Below are positions 3,218 through 53,308 of a stretch of 64,000 nt of DNA, in pieces. The stretch comes from Rhodothermus marinus (GTDB lineage Bacteria > Bacteroidota > Rhodothermia > Rhodothermales > Rhodothermaceae), in NCBI RefSeq assembly GCF_009936275.1, contig NZ_AP019797.1, positions 2,587,890 through 2,651,889 of the forward strand, read 5' to 3'. The position numbers were made by a program, and so were the translations under genes. Numbering within the stretch: the first letter of the stretch is position 1; every line of letters starts with the position of its first letter. Below the pieces are notes generated by a model that worked only from the letters and a program-made list of their open reading frames with translations, had not been told where the DNA came from and searched no databases.

Positions 3218-4532
<1,315 letters not shown>

Positions 4533-4693
4533 GGCTTAAGAGGGCACGCTGCAGGCTTGTTCGATTGCGTTTCCGGAAAAGCGCCGGCTTTCATCTCCAG
4601 ACCGGCCAGCCGGGCCAACCGTTCCCGTGTCCGGATAATACAAAACGGCGTCGCCGGAAATGGTTACAGCCCGGTAAAAGACCGACATGCTGC

Positions 4694-6142
4694 TCAGACC
4701 AGGGCCGGTTCTGTGTGGGCCGATTCGGCCAGCGTCGTGCGTCCCAGCGGCTCGCCGAAGAGCGTGGCCGACGTGCAGTCGGTGATGCGTACGCGCACAT
4801 AGTCGCCGGGACGGAAGTCATGGCGGTCGAAGACCACCATTTTGTTCGTATCGGTACGCCCGCAGAGCTGCTCCGGGCTTCGCTTGCTGGGGCCTTCCAC
4901 CAGCACCGTGTGCACGCGGCCGATCTCCTTGCGGTTGTTCTCCAGCGAGATGCGCGTCTGCAGTTCGATAATCTCCTGCAGCCGCCGCTTTTTCACCTCC
5001 AGCGGCACGTCGTCTTTGTACTTGCGGGCGGCATAGGTGCCGGGCCGCTCCGAGTACATGAACATGTAGGCGTGGTCGAAGCGGACTTCTTCCAGGAGCG
5101 AGAGCGTATCCCGGTGTTCTTCTTCGGTCTCCCCGCAGAAGCCTGCGATGATGTCGGTCGAGAGCGAGATGCCCGGCACGATGCGGCGTGCCCGCTCCAC
5201 CAGCGCCAGGTACTGCTCGCGCGTGTAGGTGCGGCGCATGCGACGGAGCACGTCGGTGTTGCCGTGCTGCACGGGCAGGTGGATGTAGTTGCACACGTTG
5301 TGCCGCTCGCGGTGCACGTGCAGCAGCTCGTCGGAGCAGTCCTTGGGATGGCTGGTCGAGTAGCGCACGCGCAGCTCCGGCGAGATCAGACTGACGCGGT
5401 AGAGCAGTTCCGGGAAGGTGACGACGGTGCCGTTTTCCGTGTAGCGGTACGAGTTGACGTTCTGGCCCAGGACGGTCACCTCCCGGTAGCCTTCCTCCAC
5501 CAGGCGGGCACATTCGTCCAGAATGCTCTGCACGGGGCGGCTGCGCTCACGTCCGCGCGTGAAGGGCACCACGCAGAAGGCGCACATGTTATCGCAGCCG
5601 CGCATGATCGACACGTAGGCCGTCACCCCGTTCGAGTCGTAGCGCACCGGGGCGATGTCGGCGTAGGTCTCTTCGCGCGAGAGCTGTACGTTGACGGCCG
5701 CCTGGCCGGTCGTTTCGGCCTCTTCCAGCAGACGCGGCAGGTCGCGGTAGGCGTCGGGTCCGACGACCAGATCGACGAGCTGCTCCTCTTCCAACAGCTT
5801 GTGCCGCAGGCGCTCGGCCATGCAGCCCAGCACGCCGATGCGCAGGCCGGGCCGCTGCTTCCGCTTATGCGCCCGGAAGATGTCGAGCCGATGCCGCACC
5901 TTCTGCTCGGCGTTTTCCCGGATGGCGCACGTGTTGAGCAGCACGACGTCGGCCTGCTCCGGGTCGCGCGTCAGCCCGTAGCCGTGCGCGCGCAGAATGG
6001 CCGCCACGATCTCCGAGTCGGAGACGTTCATCTGGCAGCCGTAGGTCTCGATGTACACCTTGCGCGCTCCCTCCGCCTCCTCGGCCGTCAGCCTGGGCGC
6101 GTCCAGATCGTCGAGAATTTCCAGGTCCTGAATCAGGTTCAT
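4694..6142 (-). CDS. miaB: tRNA-2-methylthio-N6-dimethylallyladenosine synthase MiaB
   Basis: MiaB is a radical-SAM methylthiotransferase that adds the 2-methylthio group to i6A37 in tRNAs reading UNN codons. The 482-residue protein has the full domain order. The N-terminal UPF0004 domain has the three auxiliary-cluster cysteines ([28 protein letters not shown]). The radical SAM core carries the CxxxCxxC motif ([13 protein letters not shown], near residue 200), and the C-terminal TRAM domain ends around 450. An N-terminal extension of about 25 residues precedes the first beta strand. It lies 13 bp downstream of ribE. A 161-bp gap separates it from the sigma-54 regulator, which may have its own promoter. 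Confidence 0.96.
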
Positions 6143-6155
6143 AACCCACCGCGTA

Positions 6156-6794
6156 TTAAGCGCTTTCCAGCGGGGAAGATGAACGCAGGGCGACGGCCTT
6201 CGGGTCCCGGCCGTGCATCAGCCATCCGATCACGTACTTGCCGATCATATCGAATTCGAGATTGACCGGCGTGCCCGGCTGCCAGGTCGAAACGTTCGTC
6301 TTCTGAAACGTGTGGGGAATGATGGCCACCGTGAGCGTCTCCTCTTCGAGCCGGGCCACGGTCAGGCTGATGCCGTCGATCGCAATGGAGCCGGTGGGAA
6401 TCAGGTACGGGCGAAACGCCCGGGGAAAGCGGATGCGGTAAAGGCGGTCGGTTTCCTCCACCTCGACGGATACCACCTCGCCGGTGGTATCGACATGGCC
6501 TTGCACGAAGTGACCGTCCAACCGGCCGTCGGCGGGCAGGGCCCGTTCCAGGTTGACGGGCATGCCTTCGGTCAGGCGTCCCAGCGTCGTCTTGCGCAGC
6601 GTCTCTTCCACTACTTCGACGGTGAACGTCTGCGCATCGGCCGCTACCACGGTCAGGCAGACCCCGTTGACGGCCACGCTCTGGTCAGGACGTAACGCGC
6701 CGGCAAAATTTGCCCGGATCGTCAGCCGACGTCCGCCGCCCAGCGGATCAATCCGGGCAATCTGTCCCACTTCTTCGATGATGCCGGTAAACAT
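6156..6794 (-). CDS. ribE: Riboflavin synthase, alpha subunit
   Basis: Riboflavin synthase dismutates two 6,7-dimethyl-8-ribityllumazine molecules into riboflavin and the pyrimidine precursor. The 212-residue protein has the canonical start [10 protein letters not shown] and the two tandem lumazine-binding barrels. The first contains [11 protein letters not shown]; the second contains [11 protein letters not shown] and IPHTFQKTN. The barrels are linked by the conserved GHFVQGHVD. It precedes miaB by 13 bp. ribD is 1.3 kb away but separated by a gene on the other strand. I see no FMN riboswitch fold in the 116 bases upstream. Confidence 0.96.
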
Positions 6795-43282: not shown

Positions 43283-44365
43283 ATGGCCGAGGTTACCATT
43301 TCGCGCATCGCCGAACTCCTGGGCGACGAAGCCGAGTACCTGCTCGAACACAAGTGTACCACGATTCCCAAAGAGTTGCTGCACCTGCCGGGTCCGGATT
43401 TTGTTGATCGCGTCTGGAAGGACTCAGATCGCAATCCGCGGGTGCTGCGCGCCATGCAGGAACTGTTCAACACGGGGCGTCTGGCCGGAACGGGCTATCT
43501 GTCCATCCTGCCGGTCGACCAGGGCATTGAGCACAGCGCCGGTGCCAGCTTCGCGCCGAATCCGATCTATTTCGATCCCGAAAACATCGTCAAGCTGGCC
43601 ATCGAGGGCGGCTGCAACGCGGTGGCCACAACGTTCGGCGTGCTGGGCGCCGTCGCCCGCAAGTATGCCCACAAGATTCCGTTCATTCTCAAGCTCAATC
43701 ACAACGAGCTGCTCTCCTACCCGAACACGTACGATCAGGTCCTGTTTGCCCGCGTCAAGGACGCCTGGAACATGGGCTGCGTGGGCGTCGGTGCCACCAT
43801 CTACTGGGGCTCGCCGGAGTCGCGGCGGCAGTTGCAGGAGATCAGTGAAGCGTTCTCCTACGCCCACGAGCTGGGCATGGTGACGATCCTGTGGTGCTAT
43901 CTTCGCAATAATGCCTTCAAAGTCAACGGTGTCAACCATGAGACGGCGGCCGATCTGACCGGCCAGGCCAACCACCTGGGTGTGACGATTGAGGCCGACA
44001 TCATCAAGCAGAAGCTGCCCACCCATAACGGCGGCTACAAGGCGCTCAACACGGGCAGCAGCAGCTACGGCAAGCTGGACGAGCGCATTTACACGGAGCT
44101 GAGCACCGACCATCCGATCGACCTGACGCGCTATCAGGTGGCCAACTGCTACATGGGGCGCTGCGGTCTGATCAACTCGGGCGGTGCCTCGAAGGGCAAA
44201 GACGACCTGCGGGATGCCGTGCGTACGGCCGTCATCAACAAGCGGGCCGGCGGGATGGGCCTGATCTCCGGCCGCAAGGCGTTCCAGCGTCCCATGAAGG
44301 AAGGCGTCGAGCTGCTGCACGCCATCCAGGATGTGTACCTGAATCCGGAAGTCACCATCGCCTGA
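43283..44365 (+). CDS. fbaB: Class I fructose-bisphosphate aldolase (DhnA/FbaB type)
   Basis: Cleaves fructose-1,6-bisphosphate to the triose phosphates through a Schiff base. The 360-residue protein matches the DhnA-type class I aldolases rather than the zinc class II enzymes. It has [66 protein letters not shown] with the likely Schiff-base lysine, and [16 protein letters not shown] (phosphate site) near the C-terminus. It is a single gene followed by a strong terminator. It would complete the glycolytic route downstream of NagB. Confidence 0.94.
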
Positions 44366-44388
44366 GCAGCCTCCACCGCACGCAAGGG

Positions 44389-44423
44389 GCCCGGACGAAG
44401 CTTCGTCCGGGCTTTTATTTTTT
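44389..44423 (+). terminator. Terminator after fbaB
   Basis: The perfect palindrome GCCCGGACGAAG/CTTCGTCCGGGC is followed by TTTTATTTTTT, a clear rho-independent terminator. Confidence 0.92.
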
Positions 44424-44480
44424 GCATCTCTGAAAAGAAATCGGCGTACCAGTTTTCAAAACGCGCAAGCCCTGTTATCG

Positions 44481-46235
44481 ATGGCCCTGCCGAGCACAAC
44501 ATCCGCCGACGCATCGGTCGCTTACCCCGACTGGGTGCGCGAGCTGGCCCGCCGCTATTTCACGAAGACCTTCAATCAGTTCATTCTGCATGGCAACGTG
44601 CGGGATCTGGTCCCGCTGGTCGAGGCCGGTCAGGTACGCTACGTGCCCCTGCGGGATTTTCTGCGGGACGATCTGTTCGCGCCGCGCGATCTGGTGCTCT
44701 TCTACGACCGCTCGGCCGGGCTGCAGTTCGCCCGTCCGGACATGCGTCAGGATTTTCTCCGGGCGCTGGAAGGCTTCGACCACCTGCACGGCACGAACTA
44801 CACGCGCCAGATTCCACGCGATCCGGTGCGCGTCTTTTCGCTGCTGGAACGCTATTTCCGCCTGCGCCTGGCCGAAGGCCGACGCATCGCCTGCGTGATC
44901 GACTACGCCGAGACGATCGTCCCCATGGCCGAAGGCGCTTTCTCCAGCAGCGAAGATCGCGATGCGCTGGTGTTCCTGCTCAAGTGGTCCCACGATCCGC
45001 TGTTTCTGAAAAGCGACTTCACGGTCTGCCTGATCACGGAGAATCTGACCGATCTGCACCGCCAGCTCGTGCAGAATCCCTATACGGCAGCCATTCGGAT
45101 TCCGCTGCCCGACGAAGCCGAGCGGCGCCGGTTCATCGAAGCGTATCTGGGTGATCAGGCCGAGGCGTTCCGCGCGCGCTCCGAGATGTCGCCGGCCGTG
45201 CTGGCCCATCATACGGCCGGGCTGAACCTGGTGCAGCTGCGGACCATCCTCGCCGACGTACTGGAAAACCACACGCGGCTGACCTTCGAGCGTCTGTCGG
45301 CCACCAAAAAGGCCTTTATCGAAGCCGAGGCCTACGGCCTGCTGGAATTCATCGAGACCAACTACAACCTGGACATGGTGGCGGGGCACCGGCAGGCCAA
45401 AGCGCTGCTGCGGGCCGCCGCCGAAGCGCTGCGCCAGGGGCGCTACGACGTACTGCCCATGGGTTACCTGGTGACCGGTCCGGTCGGCACCGGCAAGACG
45501 TTCCTGATCACCTGCTTTGCCGGAGAGATCGGCATCCCCATGGTCCGCCTCAAGAACTTTCGTTCTCAGTGGCAGGGCGTGACTGAAGGCAACCTGGAAA
45601 AAATCCTGAACCTGCTGGAAGCCATGACGCCGGTGGCCGTCATGATCGACGAGGCCGACGCGGCGCTGGGTCACCGGGAGGCCGAGGGCGACTCGGGCGT
45701 CTCGAAACGCGTATTTGCCCAGATTGCCTCGTTCATGAGCAACCCGGCCCACCGGGGACGTATCCTGTTCTTTCTGCTGACGGCCCGCCCCGATCTGATG
45801 CCGGTCGATTTGAAACGCCAGGGCCGCGCCGAAGAGCACATCGCGCTGTTCTATCCCGACACGCAGGAAGAACGCGATGAGCTGCTTCAGGTGATGCTTC
45901 GACGTACGGGCATCGAGCTATCGCTGGACGAAGTGCCGGACGTGCTGCGAAACGGCGAGCGATCGTTCAGCGGCGCCGAGCTGGAAGCCCTGCTGACCCG
46001 TGCAAAATTCCGGGCGGCCGCTCAGGGACTGGACCGAGTAACACCGGAATTGCTCCAGGAGGTGGTGGACGACTTTCTGCCGCCCACCTACCCCCTGGAG
46101 ATCGAACTTCAGACGCTGGTTGCCGCACTGGAATGCACCAGCCGCACCCTGCTTCCCGAATCCTTGCGCAACATGGACCGGGAAGCCATGGTTGCGCGCG
46201 TGGAGACGCTCAAGCAGCTGCTGCAAATGCGCTGA
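44481..46235 (+). CDS. Two-domain AAA ATPase with a degenerate first domain
   Basis: A 584-residue soluble protein. The N-terminal half (about 30-290) reads like an AAA domain that has lost its P-loop: a Walker-B-like IACVIDYAETI (about 136-146) and VCLITENLTDL remain, with no Walker A. The second domain is intact: GPVGTGKT at 333-340, VAVMIDEADAAL at 385-396, a sensor-like LTARPDLMP, and SFSGAELEALLTRAKF in the lid. This architecture recalls classic AAA proteins of the Ycf46 type; I am not sure of the subfamily. Its stop abuts the convergent antitoxin-like gene with no gap. The function is unknown. Confidence 0.85.
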   Translation: MALPSTTSADASVAYPDWVRELARRYFTKTFNQFILHGNVRDLVPLVEAGQVRYVPLRDFLRDDLFAPRDLVLFYDRSAGLQFARPDMRQDFLRALEGFDHLHGTNYTRQIPRDPVRVFSLLERYFRLRLAEGRRIACVIDYAETIVPMAEGAFSSSEDRDALVFLLKWSHDPLFLKSDFTVCLITENLTDLHRQLVQNPYTAAIRIPLPDEAERRRFIEAYLGDQAEAFRARSEMSPAVLAHHTAGLNLVQLRTILADVLENHTRLTFERLSATKKAFIEAEAYGLLEFIETNYNLDMVAGHRQAKALLRAAAEALRQGRYDVLPMGYLVTGPVGTGKTFLITCFAGEIGIPMVRLKNFRSQWQGVTEGNLEKILNLLEAMTPVAVMIDEADAALGHREAEGDSGVSKRVFAQIASFMSNPAHRGRILFFLLTARPDLMPVDLKRQGRAEEHIALFYPDTQEERDELLQVMLRRTGIELSLDEVPDVLRNGERSFSGAELEALLTRAKFRAAAQGLDRVTPELLQEVVDDFLPPTYPLEIELQTLVAALECTSRTLLPESLRNMDREAMVARVETLKQLLQMR

Positions 46236-46493
46236 TTATTGCTGCTGCCCTTCGCTGCCGTTCGTGCTCTCCTTCTTCCGACTGCGGCGACGGCGCGTCG
46301 TCTGCACGGGCTCCGCCTGCTCACCCAGCAGCTTCAGGTACAGATCGTAGCTGATGAGCACCGCGTAGGGTTCGTTGTTCTTCTGAATCAGAATACCCCG
46401 CTCAATATTTTTGGCATGCTCAACCAGCTCCGACGTCTTCGACCGAAGTTCCGTAATGGTCGCAACGGCTTCAATTCCTTTCGTGCTATACAT
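46236..46493 (-). CDS. Phd/YefM-type antitoxin-like protein without a partner toxin
   Basis: An 85-residue protein. The first 60 residues fit the Phd/YefM fold, a DNA-binding antitoxin (VATITELRSKTSELVEHA, ILIQKNNEPYAVLISYDLYLKLL). The C-terminal 25 residues are basic then polar (RRRRSRKK followed by a Gln-rich tail), unlike a normal toxin-binding tail. No toxin ORF is adjacent: one side is the AAA gene end to end, the other is 280 AT-rich bases. It may be an orphan regulator that binds the TGTATC repeats upstream. Confidence 0.8.
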   Translation of the reverse strand: MYSTKGIEAVATITELRSKTSELVEHAKNIERGILIQKNNEPYAVLISYDLYLKLLGEQAEPVQTTRRRRSRKKESTNGSEGQQQ

Positions 46494-46773: not shown

Positions 46774-48522
46774 ATGCGACTCCGCTGTTTTGTTCTGACC
46801 GGTTTTCTTCTGGTAGCGCTTCCGCTTGAACTAAGCGCACAACAGCCCCCCGGGCAACAGGCCTCCACCCGAAATGACATCCCGACCATCACCCGGACCT
46901 ACGCCATCACCAACGCCCGCATTGTAGTCGCGCCGGGACGGGAAATTCCCCGGGGCACGGTCGTGCTCCGCAACGGGGTGATCGAGGCGGTCGGCCCGGA
47001 CGTGCCGGTGCCCACCGACGCCTGGGTGCTGGAAGGTGATTCGCTGGTGGTCTACGCCGGTTTCATTGACGGCCTCTCCCACGCAGGCGTGCCGGCACCA
47101 CGCCGCGACGAAAACCAGCAGGAAGAGCGCCGTCGCGTGCAGAATCCGGGCGATCCGCCTCCCGAACTGGCCGGACTGACGCCGGAGCGCGATGTGCGCA
47201 CGTTGCTGAAGCCCGATGACGCCTCCGTGGAAAAGCTGCGCCGCGTGGGCTTCACCATGGCCCACGTCGTGCCCCGCGGCCGCATGCTGCCGGGACAGGG
47301 CGCCCTGATCTTTCTGCGCGGCCAGACTCCGGCCGAAATGGTCTACCGGGGCGAGGTGTCGCTGTTTGCCCAGCTCGAACCGGCCCAGGGCGTCTATCCG
47401 GCCACCGACATGGCCGTACTGGCCCGCTTCCGTCAGCTCTACCGCGAAGCAGCCCGCCGCCGGCAACACACCACGCTCTACGCCAGCGATCCGCGCGGCC
47501 TGGAGCCTCCTCCCTACGATCCGGTCCACGCCGCCTTCTTCCCGGTGCTGGAAAAACGACAGCCGGTTTTCTTCTACACCGAAGATGCCCTGGACATTCA
47601 CCGGGTGCTGGCCCTGCAACAACAGCTCGACTTTCCGCTCCGACTGGCCGGACTTGCCCAGAGCTTCGACGTGCTGGAAAAACTCAAACAGGCAAATATT
47701 CCGCTATTTCTAACGCTGGACCTGCCTGAAGCCCCGAATGACACCAGCAAACTCGGCAAGCTATCGGACGATTCGCTGGCTGCTCGGTATCATACGTATT
47801 TGCACGTATCCAGCTATCGTGATGTGCCGGCGGAAATCGAAAATCTGAAGGCGCGTCAGGCAAAAGAGCGCATCAAATATTACAAAACAGCCGCGCTTCT
47901 GCACGAAGCCGGCCTGCGCTTTGGCTTCAGTACGCGCGATGCTGATCCTGACAAAATCCTGCGCAACCTGCGCACCATGATCAAATACGGGTTGCCCGAG
48001 GAGGCGGCGCTGGCGGCATTGACCATCGACGCGGCCCGCCTGCTCGGGATCGATCGCGCCACCGGCACAGTCGAGGCCGGCAAGCTGGCCAACCTGGTCG
48101 TAACGACCGGACCGCTTTTCGACGAAAAGACGCGCATCCGCTACGTGTTCGTGGCCGGCGAGCTGTTCGAGATCAAGGAACCGGCCCGGCGTCCGCGTGC
48201 GCGCGAGGAAGGTGCCACACCGGCCCGCGCCGACGGCACCTGGTCCTGCACGGTGGATTCGCCGGAAGGCTCCGTCGACACGACGCTGCGCATCGAGGGA
48301 CAATCCGGCACGCTTTCCAGTAGCGCCATCCCTCAGGAACTCCCGCTGGAAAACCTGACGCTGGAGGGTTCGCAGCTTTCCTTCAGTGTCACAACCAACG
48401 CCTACGGGCGCGTCAATGCGCGGCTGACGCTCAGCGGCAATGCGGCCGAGGGCACCATCGACGTGCCCGGCGTCGGCGCCCTGCCCATGCGCTGCACCCG
48501 TACTTCCGGACCTGAACGCTAA
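46774..48522 (+). CDS. Secreted amidohydrolase-fold protein with degenerate metal site
   Basis: A 582-residue exported protein (signal peptide 1-21, ending LSAQ) of the metallo-dependent amidohydrolase superfamily. The N-terminal beta sandwich is normal (YAITNARIVVAPG, VVLRNGVIEAVG), and the last part of the barrel is kept (AALAALTIDAARLLGIDRATGTVEAGKLANLVV). The family HxH motif after PGFID is replaced by GFIDGLSHAG, so the first His is lost. A C-terminal beta domain of about 100 residues (from near 480) is added. It is first of three tandem related genes. The start at 46774 gives a regular signal peptide. It is possibly a pseudoenzyme or works with the next gene product. Confidence 0.85.
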   Translation: MRLRCFVLTGFLLVALPLELSAQQPPGQQASTRNDIPTITRTYAITNARIVVAPGREIPRGTVVLRNGVIEAVGPDVPVPTDAWVLEGDSLVVYAGFIDGLSHAGVPAPRRDENQQEERRRVQNPGDPPPELAGLTPERDVRTLLKPDDASVEKLRRVGFTMAHVVPRGRMLPGQGALIFLRGQTPAEMVYRGEVSLFAQLEPAQGVYPATDMAVLARFRQLYREAARRRQHTTLYASDPRGLEPPPYDPVHAAFFPVLEKRQPVFFYTEDALDIHRVLALQQQLDFPLRLAGLAQSFDVLEKLKQANIPLFLTLDLPEAPNDTSKLGKLSDDSLAARYHTYLHVSSYRDVPAEIENLKARQAKERIKYYKTAALLHEAGLRFGFSTRDADPDKILRNLRTMIKYGLPEEAALAALTIDAARLLGIDRATGTVEAGKLANLVVTTGPLFDEKTRIRYVFVAGELFEIKEPARRPRAREEGATPARADGTWSCTVDSPEGSVDTTLRIEGQSGTLSSSAIPQELPLENLTLEGSQLSFSVTTNAYGRVNARLTLSGNAAEGTIDVPGVGALPMRCTRTSGPER

Positions 48523-48537
48523 CCCCTGCCTGTGGCT

Positions 48538-49923
48538 ATGTTTCGCGTGTATCTGCTTGCCTGCTGTCTGCTGCTGGGCCTGATCACAACGGCCCATGCC
48601 CAGCGGAAAGGCGACCTGTTCATCCGCAACGGGACGGTACTGACCGTCACCAACGGCACCCTGGAAAACACGGACATCCTGATTCGCAACGGCAAGATTG
48701 CGGCCATCGGACAAAATCTGAAAGTGCCCGATGGTGTCGAGGTGATCGATGCGACCGGTATGTACGTCATGCCGGGCATCATCGACGCCCACTCGCACAT
48801 CGCCATCTCCAACGTGAACGAGGCCACCAACCCGGTAACGGCCGAAGTCAGCGTAGGCGATGTGCTGGATCCCTACGACATCCGCCTCTACCGGGCGCTG
48901 GCCGGCGGCGTGACCATCTCGCACGTCATGCACGGCTCGGCCAACGTCATCGGCGGCCAGAACGAAACGATCAAGCATCGCTACGGCGAGACCGACCCGG
49001 ACGCCCTCCGCATGGAAGGCGCTCCCCGGACCATCAAATTCGCCCTGGGCGAAAACCCCACGCGCGTGCACGGACGCGGCCACAACGTTCCACCCCTGTC
49101 CCGCATGGGCGTGGAGTTCATCATCCGGGACGCCTTTCATAAGGCCCGGCGCTACATGGAGGCCTGGGACCGCTACGAGCAGGAACGCAAACGCAACCCG
49201 CGCGCTGTGCCCCCTCCCTACAACGAACGCCTGGAGGTGCTGGCCGACATTCTCCGCGGTAACATCCTCATTCACTGCCATTCCTACCGCGCCGACGAAA
49301 TCCTCATGCTGATGCGCGTGCTGAAGGACTTCGGCATCCAGCGCGTGGTCTTTCAACACGCCAACGAGGCCTTCAAGGTGGCGCCCGAACTGGCCGCCTT
49401 CGGCGCCATGGCTTCGGTCTTTTCGGACTGGTGGGCCTACAAGTTCGAGGTGTACTACTCCACGGCCTACAACGCGGCCATCCTGACCCGTAACGGCGTG
49501 ATCACCTCGATCAATTCGGACTCACCGGAACTGAACCGACACCTGTACCACGAGGCGGCCAAGACCATGAAGTACGGCGGACTGACCGAGGATGAGGCGC
49601 TGGCCCTCATCACGATCAATCCGGCCCGCCAGCTTGGTATCGAAGATCGCGTCGGCTCCATCGAGGTGGGCAAGGACGCCGATCTGGCCATCTTCAGCGC
49701 CCACCCGCTTTCGATCTACGCGGTCTGCAAGAAAACCATCGTGGACGGAATCGTCCGCTTCGATGCCGACCGCGATCCCGACGATATGCGCCTCCGCGTG
49801 GATCCCGAGCGTCCCGTGGAGCTGGCCATCCGCTGGGGCGACCACCAGCATGGCCATCGCTGTCTGGAAGGCATCGATCTGATCGAGTTTCTCACCGAAA
49901 CGCTACAGTCCGAGTGGCAATGA
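48538..49923 (+). CDS. Secreted metal-dependent amidohydrolase (intact active site)
   Basis: A 461-residue exported enzyme (signal peptide about 1-19, ending AHAQ). It keeps the complete set of metal and catalytic residues of the imidazolonepropionase/dipeptidase-like amidohydrolases: PGIIDAHSHI, LIHCHSYRADE, VVFQHANEAF and SINSDSPELN with the final Asp. Such proteins hydrolyse cyclic amides, iso-peptides or dipeptides; the substrate is not known. The ATG at 48538 is chosen over a GTG at 48532. It overlaps the next gene by 4 bp (ATGA) and lies 15 bp after the first. Confidence 0.9.
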   Translation: MFRVYLLACCLLLGLITTAHAQRKGDLFIRNGTVLTVTNGTLENTDILIRNGKIAAIGQNLKVPDGVEVIDATGMYVMPGIIDAHSHIAISNVNEATNPVTAEVSVGDVLDPYDIRLYRALAGGVTISHVMHGSANVIGGQNETIKHRYGETDPDALRMEGAPRTIKFALGENPTRVHGRGHNVPPLSRMGVEFIIRDAFHKARRYMEAWDRYEQERKRNPRAVPPPYNERLEVLADILRGNILIHCHSYRADEILMLMRVLKDFGIQRVVFQHANEAFKVAPELAAFGAMASVFSDWWAYKFEVYYSTAYNAAILTRNGVITSINSDSPELNRHLYHEAAKTMKYGGLTEDEALALITINPARQLGIEDRVGSIEVGKDADLAIFSAHPLSIYAVCKKTIVDGIVRFDADRDPDDMRLRVDPERPVELAIRWGDHQHGHRCLEGIDLIEFLTETLQSEWQ

Positions 49924-51251
49924 AACGCTTGCTTTTGCTCTGGATCATCGGCTGGCTGCTGAGCCTGCCGGCCGCACAGGCTACCGACGTACCGAAAGCT
50001 CGCCGGGGCGTCTTCGCCCTGACAAACGCCCGCATCGTCACTGTCACCCAGGGCGTCATCGAGCGCGGCACGCTGATCATCCGCGAGGACCGCATCGTAG
50101 CCATCGGCACGGACGTGGAAATCCCGCCCGAAGCGGAAGTCATCGACTGCACCGGGCTGGAGATCTATCCCGGCTTTATCGACAGCGGCACCCATCTGGG
50201 GCTGATCGAAATCGGCTCGCTGCCGGAAACGCGCGATTACCGCGAGCTGGGTGATCTGACGCCTCAGGTGGATGCGTTGACGGCCGTCAACCCGAATTCG
50301 GTGCTCATTCCCGTCAACCGCGTCAACGGCGTCACCACGGTCATCACCGAGCCCGAGGGCGGACTGCTTCCGGGCAAGGCTGCTCTGATCAACCTGTTCG
50401 GCTATACGCCCGAGCAGATGCACGTGGGCGGCGTGCGCCTGATGGTGCTCGACTTCCCGTCCAAAGGCCGGCGCGGCCCCTGGGATCGGCGCAAGCCGGA
50501 AGACATCGAAAAAGCCTTCCGCGAGGCGATGGACAAGCTGAACGAGGTCTGGGACCGCGCCGAACGCTACGCCCGGATCGACTCGGCCTACCGTGCCAAC
50601 CCGGAGAAGAACCCGAAGCCGCTTTACGTGCCGGAAATGCAGCCGCTGCTGCCGGTCATCCGGGGCGAAATGCCGCTCATGATCAAAGTGGATCTGGCAC
50701 CCGATATTCTGGAAGCCATCCAGTGGGTCAAAAAACGGGGCCTGAAGCGCGTGGTCTTCAGCGGCGTGGCCGAGGGCTGGCGCGTGGCCGACAAGATCGC
50801 CGAGGCCGGCATTCCCTGTCTGGTCGGTCCCGTACTCTCACTGCCCACCCGTGAATCCGACCGCTACGACAAAGCCTACGCCAACGCGGGGCTGCTACAC
50901 GCAGCCGGGGTCAAGATCGCCATCCGCACGGGCGAAGCCGAGAACGTGCGCAATCTGCCCTATCATGCCGGCTTTGCGGCCGCCTATGGACTGGGACGCG
51001 AGGCCGCGCTCCGCGCCGTCACCATCAACCCGGCCGAAATCTTCGGGGTGGACGATTTGATCGGCTCGCTGGAAGTGGGCAAAAAAGCCAACCTGTTTGT
51101 ATCCGACGGCGATCCGTTTGAACCAAAAACGCAGGTGCGGTACGTGTTTATCGACGGATATCTGATTCCGATGGACAACCGCCAGCTCAGGCTCTATCAA
51201 GAATTCCTCCATCGGCAGCCGGGTCTCGAGCTGCACCCGGCTACCCACTGA
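49920..51251 (+). CDS. Secreted amidohydrolase-fold protein, metal ligands lost
   Basis: A 443-residue exported protein (signal peptide about 1-22) paralogous to the two genes before it. The fold markers are kept (FALTNARIVTVTQG, IIREDRIVAIG, AALRAVTINPAEIFGVDDLIGSLEVGKKANL), but the HxH motif reads PGFIDSGTHLG, and the late Asp motif reads IRTGEAEN. It therefore lacks the usual metal site. The start ATG overlaps the stop of the active paralogue, so the two are made in a fixed ratio. A regulatory or scaffold role beside the active enzyme is inferred. Confidence 0.87.
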   Translation: MKRLLLLWIIGWLLSLPAAQATDVPKARRGVFALTNARIVTVTQGVIERGTLIIREDRIVAIGTDVEIPPEAEVIDCTGLEIYPGFIDSGTHLGLIEIGSLPETRDYRELGDLTPQVDALTAVNPNSVLIPVNRVNGVTTVITEPEGGLLPGKAALINLFGYTPEQMHVGGVRLMVLDFPSKGRRGPWDRRKPEDIEKAFREAMDKLNEVWDRAERYARIDSAYRANPEKNPKPLYVPEMQPLLPVIRGEMPLMIKVDLAPDILEAIQWVKKRGLKRVVFSGVAEGWRVADKIAEAGIPCLVGPVLSLPTRESDRYDKAYANAGLLHAAGVKIAIRTGEAENVRNLPYHAGFAAAYGLGREAALRAVTINPAEIFGVDDLIGSLEVGKKANLFVSDGDPFEPKTQVRYVFIDGYLIPMDNRQLRLYQEFLHRQPGLELHPATH

Positions 51252-51380: not shown

Positions 51381-51445
51381 AACTTCCTGTTTTTTAATCA
51401 CACATGGCAGAGCAAGGCGGGGCAAGGAATATACCGGGGTTCGCC

Positions 51446-53308
51446 ATGAAATTTCACCGGTTCAAAAGGAAACAAAAGCGCTTTTATCTTGCGCTTCTGG
51501 CGCAGTGGTTACGTTTTGACTCATCCAGAGGTAACGTTAGATCCCAAATTACCCGCGACTTCTGTTATTTTCGTGCAAAGAAAAATCACTGGTGCTGGCC
51601 GCTTGCGCTGATCCTGCTGGTCCAGGTAGCCCGGGCACAGGTAGGCGACATCCCCCGCCCCTACCGGGCCTATCACGGGCTGGTGGTTTCGGCGCGTCCG
51701 GAGGCTTCCGAGGCCGGACTGGAGATGCTCCGACGCGGCGGCAATGCGATCGACGCAGCGGTTGCCACCGGCTTTGCATTGGCCGTGGTGCATCCGGTGG
51801 CCGGCAACATCGGAGGTGGCGGCTTCATGGTGATCCGCTTTGCCGACGGCCGCACCACCACGATCGATTTCCGCGAGACGGCTCCCCGGGCGGCCACCCG
51901 CGACATGTTTCTGGACGAAAACGGGCAGTTCGTGCCCGAACGCAGCCAGCAGGGCTACCTGGCCTCCGGCGTGCCCGGCTCGGTGGCCGGATTGCTCATG
52001 GCCCATGAGAAATACGGCCGCCTTTCCCGCACTGAGGTGCTGGAACCGGCCATCCGCCTGGCCGAAGAAGGCTTCCGCCTCACCCGCGAACAGGCCGCCC
52101 GCTTCAACGCCTTCCGCGAAGCCTTTTCACGCTATCCCTCTACCCGGAAATATTTCGTAAAAGACACACCCTTCCGGGAGGGCGAGTTGTTCGTGCAGAA
52201 GGACCTGGCCCGCACGCTCCGACGCATTCAGCAGTACGGGGCCGACGATTTCTACCGGGGCGAAACGGCCGACCTGATCGTGGCCGAAATGCAGCGGGGT
52301 GGCGGCCTGATCACGCACGAAGACCTGGCCTCCTACCGGGCCATCGAACGTCCCCCGGTCGTCGGCACCTACCGGGGGTATCGGATCATTTCGATGGGAC
52401 CGCCCTCCTCCGGCGGAATCGGCCTGATTCAACTTCTCAACGCCGTCGAGCCCTACGACATTGCGGAGATGGGCTTCGGCAGCAGCGCCACCATCCACCT
52501 GATGGCCGAGGCCATGCGTCGCGTCTACGCCGACCGCGCGCAGTGGCTGGGCGATCCCGATTTTGTGAAGATCCCCGTGCAGGGACTGCTCCGCAAGGAG
52601 TACATGCGCCAGCGCATGGCCGACTTCAACCCCTACCGGGCCGATACCAGCCAGCGCGTCACGCACGGCGATCCGTGGGCCTTCGAGTCGCAGGAAACCA
52701 CGCACTATTCGGTGGTCGACGACGAGGGCAACGCGGTCAGCGTGACCACCACGATCAACGGCGCCTACGGCTCGCTCGTGGTGGTCGATGGCGCCGGGTT
52801 TTTCCTGAACAACGAAATGGACGACTTCAGCGCGGCGCCCGGCGTGCCCAACATGTTCGGGCTGGTGGGCTCCGAGGCCAACGCCATCGCACCGGGCAAG
52901 CGTATGCTCTCGTCCATGACCCCCACCATCGTCGAAGATCCGGAAGGCCGGCTCTTTCTGGTGCTGGGAACGCCGGGCGGATCGACCATCATCACGACGG
53001 TCTTCCAGCTCGTGCTGAACGTGATCGACCACGGGATGAACATCCAGCAGGCCGTGCTGGCCCCGCGTATTCATCACCAGTGGCTACCCGATGTGCTCTA
53101 CTACGAACGCCGGGGCCTGCCGCGCGATGTGGTCGAAAACCTGAAGCGACGGGGCTGGAAGGTCGTCGAGCGCGACGGCACCAGCGGTCGGGCACACGCC
53201 ATCCAGGTAGTCTATGGACCGGATGAGCTGGCGCCCGTGCCCGGCGTGACCCGGGTCTACCTGGCGGGCGTCGATCCGCGTGGTGAAGGCGGCGCGGCCG
53301 GCTATTGA
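51446..53308 (+). CDS. ggt: Gamma-glutamyltransferase Ggt
   Basis: Ggt cleaves or transfers the gamma-glutamyl group of glutathione and other gamma-glutamyl peptides in the periplasm. The enzyme self-cleaves before the Thr of ETTHYSVVD to give two subunits. Other motifs are NAIDAAVATGFALAVVHP, GGGGFMVIR, FRETAP, MGPPSSGGIG and GKRMLSSMTPTI. From the ATG at 51446 it has 620 residues. The secretion signal (hydrophobic core WPLALILLVQVA, before RAQ) is about 50 residues in, and no ATG, GTG or TTG lies nearer in frame. A promoter-like pair at 51489-51518 lies inside this stretch, so the true start may be an ATT at 51548. The stop is 1 bp before the convergent purF end. Confidence 0.9.
   Translation: MKFHRFKRKQKRFYLALLAQWLRFDSSRGNVRSQITRDFCYFRAKKNHWCWPLALILLVQVARAQVGDIPRPYRAYHGLVVSARPEASEAGLEMLRRGGNAIDAAVATGFALAVVHPVAGNIGGGGFMVIRFADGRTTTIDFRETAPRAATRDMFLDENGQFVPERSQQGYLASGVPGSVAGLLMAHEKYGRLSRTEVLEPAIRLAEEGFRLTREQAARFNAFREAFSRYPSTRKYFVKDTPFREGELFVQKDLARTLRRIQQYGADDFYRGETADLIVAEMQRGGGLITHEDLASYRAIERPPVVGTYRGYRIISMGPPSSGGIGLIQLLNAVEPYDIAEMGFGSSATIHLMAEAMRRVYADRAQWLGDPDFVKIPVQGLLRKEYMRQRMADFNPYRADTSQRVTHGDPWAFESQETTHYSVVDDEGNAVSVTTTINGAYGSLVVVDGAGFFLNNEMDDFSAAPGVPNMFGLVGSEANAIAPGKRMLSSMTPTIVEDPEGRLFLVLGTPGGSTIITTVFQLVLNVIDHGMNIQQAVLAPRIHHQWLPDVLYYERRGLPRDVVENLKRRGWKVVERDGTSGRAHAIQVVYGPDELAPVPGVTRVYLAGVDPRGEGGAAGY
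51489..51518 (+). promoter_or_regulatory. Bacteroidota-like promoter inside the annotated ggt 5' end
   Basis: TTG at 51489-51491, an 18-base spacer, then TACGTTTTG at 51510-51518, close to the TTG-N19-TAnnTTTG consensus. If real, transcription starts near 51525 and translation must start downstream of that point. Confidence 0.4.

Follow-up and report, generated by a model that had tools for sequence, protein, structure and literature searches.

Three tandem secreted amidohydrolase sisters in Rhodothermus marinus: one predicted enzyme and two probable pseudoenzyme partners

We describe an operon of three tandem genes in Rhodothermus marinus that probably encodes a self-contained secreted complex, in which the product of the middle gene (gene 2) would be catalytic while those of the flanking genes (genes 1 and 3) would be pseudoenzymes that bind it in a fixed hetero-oligomer. 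Judged from sequence, the data are best explained by a secreted hetero-oligomer in which one subunit is catalytic and two are not. A hetero-oligomer had been suggested in the first-pass annotation, and it gains indirect support from the fusion of genes 1 and 2, the conserved gene order and the presence of the three genes in identical sets of genomes, including those where gene 3 is unlinked. The ligand loss, purifying selection, conserved order, fusion and co-occurrence described below are direct observations.

Results

The trio lies head to tail on the + strand of a complete genome of 3.43 Mb; coordinates refer to the window, the whole stretch of 64,000 nucleotides that was analysed. Gene 1 (46774..48522, 582 aa) starts at an ATG at 46774, its open frame extending upstream to 46729, from where its residues are numbered. 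It is separated by a 15-base gap from the ATG of gene 2 (48538..49923), which has an alternative GTG start at 48532 that is used here for residue numbering. The stop of gene 2 and the start of gene 3 (49920..51251, 443 aa) share the ATGA overlap at 49920..49923 that had been seen in the first-pass annotation, and a spacing of -4 between these genes was estimated in 23 of 128 loci. The same annotation had called the genes tandem secreted amidohydrolase paralogues, and this description holds: the three ORFs are intact, each product carries a hydrophobic, signal-like N-terminal segment, and all are homologous over the barrel. Pfam Amidohydro_1 (PF01979) is reached by all three, with genes 1 and 3 over the cut-off (E 3.8e-12 and 1.4e-12). 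Among the fetched loci, the named genome closest to this one is a Rhodothermus metagenome-assembled genome (MAG), whose gene 2 is 93% identical.

Beyond the trio itself the neighbours are not conserved, and a widely shared gene cluster around it was not found. Upstream, at 43283-46235, an aldolase-like gene is followed by an AAA+ ATPase gene, a pair unrelated in function to the trio that occurs at many loci, mostly in Rhodothermia. Between the ATPase gene and gene 1 lies a small Phd/YefM-like antitoxin gene (46236-46493, - strand; Pfam E 8e-10), beside which no toxin gene was seen. Downstream, a gamma-glutamyltranspeptidase gene (51404-53308) holds its position within the genus only. We considered these neighbours as a clue to the substrate and rejected them, the transpeptidase being a genus-level feature and the ATPase/aldolase pair mostly confined to Rhodothermia; as the surroundings are not conserved, the context does not indicate a substrate.

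Gene 2 is predicted to be an active amidohydrolase of the 3ooq/TM0814 type, combining homology over the full barrel with a full set of ligands. It matches the PDB entry 3ooq over the whole barrel (phmmer E 1.6e-68, residues 30-410 on chain positions 8-386), and this uncharacterised amidohydrolase, which we take to be TM0814 of Thermotoga, is the closest solved structure for all three gene products alike. A published function for 3ooq/TM0814 was not found. Every NCBIfam equivalog match listed for genes 1-3 is far below its curated cut-off (Xaa-Pro dipeptidase, for example, reaches 54 of 500 bits); imidazolonepropionase, dihydropyrimidinase, allantoinase and nagA are also among these matches. 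The motifs on which the first-pass annotation had based the activity of gene 2 are all present (GIIDAHSHI, LIHCHSYRAD, FQHANEAF and INSDSPEL), and the six superfamily ligand positions read HHKHHD in 138 of 139 orthologues, the remaining one having Arg for Lys. The predicted HxH metal ligands H87-S-H89 (48790..48798), the predicted ligands H250 (49279..49281) and H276 (49357..49359) and the predicted catalytic or metal Asp D330 (49519..49521), all on the + strand, are invariant. The sixth position is K148, the Lys of IGGQNETIK (48973..48975, + strand), a candidate carboxylated, bridging lysine.

Genes 1 and 3 have the barrel homology of a catalytic amidohydrolase but not its HxH/Lys/His/His/Asp set. 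Alignment with structural superfamily members, proposed in the first-pass annotation as a check, places all three proteins on 3ooq at full length (profile matches with E 2.6e-56 for gene 3 and 1.4e-38 for gene 1) and leaves genes 1 and 3 without the ligand set. The three genes align with one another at E 1e-44 to 7e-71, and these profile-profile alignments (hhalign) set the register used here. At the HxH region gene 1 has GFIDGLSHAG and gene 3 has GFIDSGTHLG, so that the two degenerate motifs noted earlier are real features of the ORFs; opposite H-S-H of the enzyme stand the codons for L-S-H in gene 1 (47074..47082, + strand) and for G-T-H in gene 3 (50187..50195, + strand). Opposite the whole HHKHHD set, gene 1 has L116/H118/F195/Y283/G308/R403 and gene 3 has G/H/N/K/G/G, the position of the bridging Lys being lost in both (F195 and N160). 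The late Asp, D330 in gene 2, had been reported as missing from gene 3, where a Gly is indeed found; its implied retention in gene 1 did not stand, as the corresponding residue is R403 in a column occupied by L/M/I/A/R/K across the family. The adjacent D404 was considered as a retained late Asp and rejected, because it is R403 that hhalign sets opposite the metal Asp, and conservation is lacking in both columns.

The loss extends to the whole families. Among 133 gene 1 sequences, 66 keep none of the six ligands, 57 keep one and 10 keep two; among 124 gene 3 sequences, 95 keep none, 25 one, 3 two and a single sequence three. The pattern of one live and two dead sisters is kept in more than 120 distinct orthologues of each gene and is therefore not due to chance. 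Neither family has a conserved His or Cys. A shifted metal site would need conserved ligands of its own and, as no conserved set with His or Cys exists, we reject this possibility. The earlier proposal that only the middle gene is catalytic is thus strongly supported at the sequence level by the family-wide ligand loss, the lack of a shifted His/Cys set and purifying selection.

AF2 models of both sisters are confident and have the strand/helix alternation of a barrel (gene 1: pLDDT 87.8, pTM 0.74; gene 3: pLDDT 87, pTM 0.84). The secondary structure of the gene 1 model includes a C-terminal beta domain of eight strands (48235..48507, + strand), which sits between the two barrels in fused Bacteroidota proteins according to HMM coverage. 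In the gene 3 model, loop 99-108 has low confidence; it was examined as an interface signal and rejected, since its mean conservation is 0.62 against 0.64; in this region E99, T106, D108, E111 and G113 alone stand out.

The arrangement was followed in loci retrieved with gene 2 as anchor, of which 80 came from named genomes and, with some overlap, 30 and 40 more from genome searches. The order 1-2-3 was found in 124 loci, and in 3 more whose frames are broken or overlap, so that practically all loci whose flanks are intact keep it; two loci of the split type are incomplete, with only two genes each, and both end at a contig edge. The medians of the estimated intergenic gaps are 13 and 12.5 bases, and 107 of 126 and 107 of 128 gaps lie between -30 and 50. 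Elsewhere in the Bacteroidota, many genomes encode genes 1 and 2 as a single protein of about 1000 aa, with gene 1 as the N-terminal and gene 2 as the C-terminal part. In all 20 fused loci examined, the C-terminal ligands are intact and the N-terminal ones lost, and gene 3 directly follows the fused gene in 14 of them. Two further candidates were discarded: a 983-aa "fusion" of genes 1 and 2 (locus L103) is merely a long open frame overlapping gene 1, and a 2531-aa frame with gene 1 (genome G007) enters a masked stretch and is no mega-fusion. On a plasmid of Hymenobacter volaticus (L161 2278-6696) the fused gene and gene 3 are split into several frames, which may reflect decay or sequencing errors.

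Presence was scored in 394 sampled Bacteroidota genomes with E cut-offs of 1e-60, 1e-40 and 1e-85 for genes 1, 2 and 3. Matches were obtained in 201, 213 and 197 genomes, respectively, and the identical 197 genomes, from many families, carry strong matches to all three. The four additional gene 1 genomes are G007, with its masked stretch at the locus, and three marginal matches near 1e-61, while the 16 remaining gene 2-positive genomes have a weak gene 2-like match only (1e-50 to 1e-62).

These weak matches proved to belong to another type of operon ("duo"), in which a live HHKHHD enzyme is followed by one dead sister, mostly with the ligand letters HVKTGG or RVKTGG. The duo arrangement is seen in 15 of 15 readable loci; the 16th ends at a contig edge. 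The genome of Rhodothermus marinus itself carries a further secreted two-gene operon of this kind at about 1.840-1.843 Mb (L157, C1:1836410-1846994), with ORFs at 5214-6551 (446 aa) and 3989-5194 (402 aa), both on the - strand; its live enzyme has DTHSH followed by K, H, H and D, and its dead sister has DAHSV and lacks the later His/Asp ligands. Two plasmids of sphingomonads (Sphingomonadales) also pair a live enzyme with a dead sister downstream that resembles gene 3, and in Qipengyuania citrea the pair again has a four-base overlap. There (L160 2108-6597) the pair follows a gene for a peptide MFS transporter, the only hint of a peptide-like substrate.

Five relatives with all ligands occur alone. 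No second amidohydrolase was seen in the stretches around the enzymes of Acetoanaerobium, Cytobacillus, Nonomuraea and Monoglobus (the last, L172 2494-4649, following a gene for FAD:protein FMN transferase), and TM0814 presumably also stands alone, without a second amidohydrolase partner. Four of these five relatives were examined in a simple hydropathy test, and none has a signal-like N-terminus. In this limited sample the solo enzymes thus look cytosolic, and the secreted ones appear to be accompanied by dead sisters.

A tree of 50 sequences has a single branch (100/98) that parts all live from all dead enzymes; gene 1 and gene 3 form one group each, as do the dead sisters of the duos and those of the sphingomonads. 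The residue opposite H276 is Gly in almost all gene 3 sequences (122 of 124), in most of gene 1, in nearly all duo dead sisters and in both sphingomonad ones. The split and this common replacement make one ancient loss of catalysis the simplest reading of a tree in which the root is not fixed and the dead lineages have long branches.

Discussion

We propose that the trio operon would give rise to a secreted, probably periplasmic enzyme complex. Its catalytic subunit, gene 2, would be a metal-dependent amidohydrolase of the 3ooq/TM0814 type that uses the HxH, His, His and Asp ligands, with the Lys perhaps bridging two metals as a carbamate; its substrate is probably a small amide or peptide-like compound, in which it would cleave a C-N bond. 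The products of genes 1 and 3, which share the barrel but lack a metal site, would be pseudoenzyme sisters. Most likely they bind gene 2 and help it to assemble, stabilise it, control access to its active site or regulate it, much as the dead dihydroorotase does for aspartate transcarbamoylase in Pseudomonas. What the sequences show is conserved dead paralogues linked to a live one; the physical complex, the metal content, the hydrolysis of an amide and the division of labour are inferred. Fusion and co-occurrence make a contact between genes 1 and 2 likely and a contact of gene 3 with that pair plausible. Two points count against a complex: genes for enzymes of successive steps that never make contact may also share an operon or be fused, and in several lineages gene 3 is located apart from the fused gene, at a distance of about 966 kb in one genome (G043; gene 3 at 1.915 Mb, fused gene at 0.948 Mb) and on different contigs in three others (G247, G283 and G341).

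The separate location of gene 3 in fused lineages would also fit a different role for the sisters, as periplasmic binding proteins or sensors whose dead barrels bind substrate or product and which share a pathway with gene 2 without forming a complex. Gene 3 does conserve non-metal residues at the mouth of the barrel, with E99, D108 and E111 at 99-100% and N160 as N or D in 104 of 124 sequences. We nevertheless consider such a role unlikely, as the fusion of genes 1 and 2 and the strict three-way co-occurrence exceed what a loose pathway link needs, and gene 1 has almost no conserved polar residues from which a binding site could be built.

It is even less likely that genes 1 and 3 encode enzymes with a new function, whose active site either needs no metal or holds it at shifted positions. 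Such enzymes would be under strong purifying selection, as both genes are, and several acidic residues of gene 3 (E99, D108, E111, D400 and others) are conserved at 80% identity. However, neither family has the conserved His or Cys of a new site, D114 and K452 are the only residues among H, D, E, C and K conserved above 80% in gene 1, and the six ligand columns vary freely or are fixed as Gly or Asn.

Four comparisons within the genus put dN/dS at 0.03-0.04 in gene 2, about 0.03 in gene 3 and 0.08-0.12 in gene 1; another pair, the fifth, is more diverged and gave 0.05, 0.10 and 0.15, synonymous sites being near saturation in distant pairs. By this sequence measure, genes 1 and 3 are functional proteins under purifying selection and not in decay. 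That they are decaying duplicates hitch-hiking with gene 2, as the several-fold faster evolution of gene 1 relative to genes 2 and 3 might suggest, is extremely improbable and already contradicted by dN/dS far below 1, open frames and an identical distribution across 197 genomes of many families.

The history of the proposed complex may reach back further than the trio. Tentatively, and with some doubt, we suggest that catalysis was lost once, long ago, at the origin of a pseudoenzyme lineage. From then on this lineage would have accompanied the family's secreted enzymes in Gram-negative bacteria, with a later doubling (genes 1 and 3) and a fusion to the live subunit. The dead sisters might then complete or gate the live active site, such that no secreted enzyme of the family would work alone.

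Dead enzyme partners have been described mostly as isolated cases. Here, one bacterial family combines solo enzymes, enzymes with one or two dead partners and fused forms, and so permits the experimental question of why enzymes acquire dead sisters and what these do. The data also carry a warning, in that two of the three "amidohydrolase" annotations in trio operons name proteins that are probably unable to work as amidohydrolases. A description of the trio system was not found in the open-access literature on amidohydrolase pseudoenzymes, TM0814 or 3OOQ, a search that does not cover most subscription journals; the enzyme-pseudoenzyme complex that the shared distribution and the fusions suggest would be old and is apparently undescribed.

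Among known systems, TM0814/3ooq has the HxH, Lys, His, His and Asp of gene 2 along its entire chain. It differs from the trio in the lack of a signal-like N-terminus in the aligned stretch and in being known here as a single protein, and from genes 1 and 3 in its metal site, which they have lost. The dihydropyrimidinase-related proteins (CRMPs), which were among the PDB matches of the profile search, are dead relatives of amidohydrolases that have kept the fold but, unlike the trio, are eukaryotic cytoskeletal proteins not encoded in an operon with a live sister. In enzyme-prozyme pairs, such as the AdoMet decarboxylase of trypanosomatids, a dead paralogue binds and activates the live enzyme; this eukaryotic system has another fold and a single dead partner. 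In Pseudomonas aeruginosa, an inactive subunit with the amidohydrolase fold, pseudo-dihydroorotase, is an obligate partner of ATCase; when the two are mixed 1:1, activity returns and the melting temperature rises to 77 C (PMC7053772). This precedent shows that an amidohydrolase barrel without activity can be an obligate subunit, although the Pseudomonas barrel serves an unrelated transcarbamoylase (PMC7053772), whereas in the trio two dead barrels stand beside their own live sister and are secreted.
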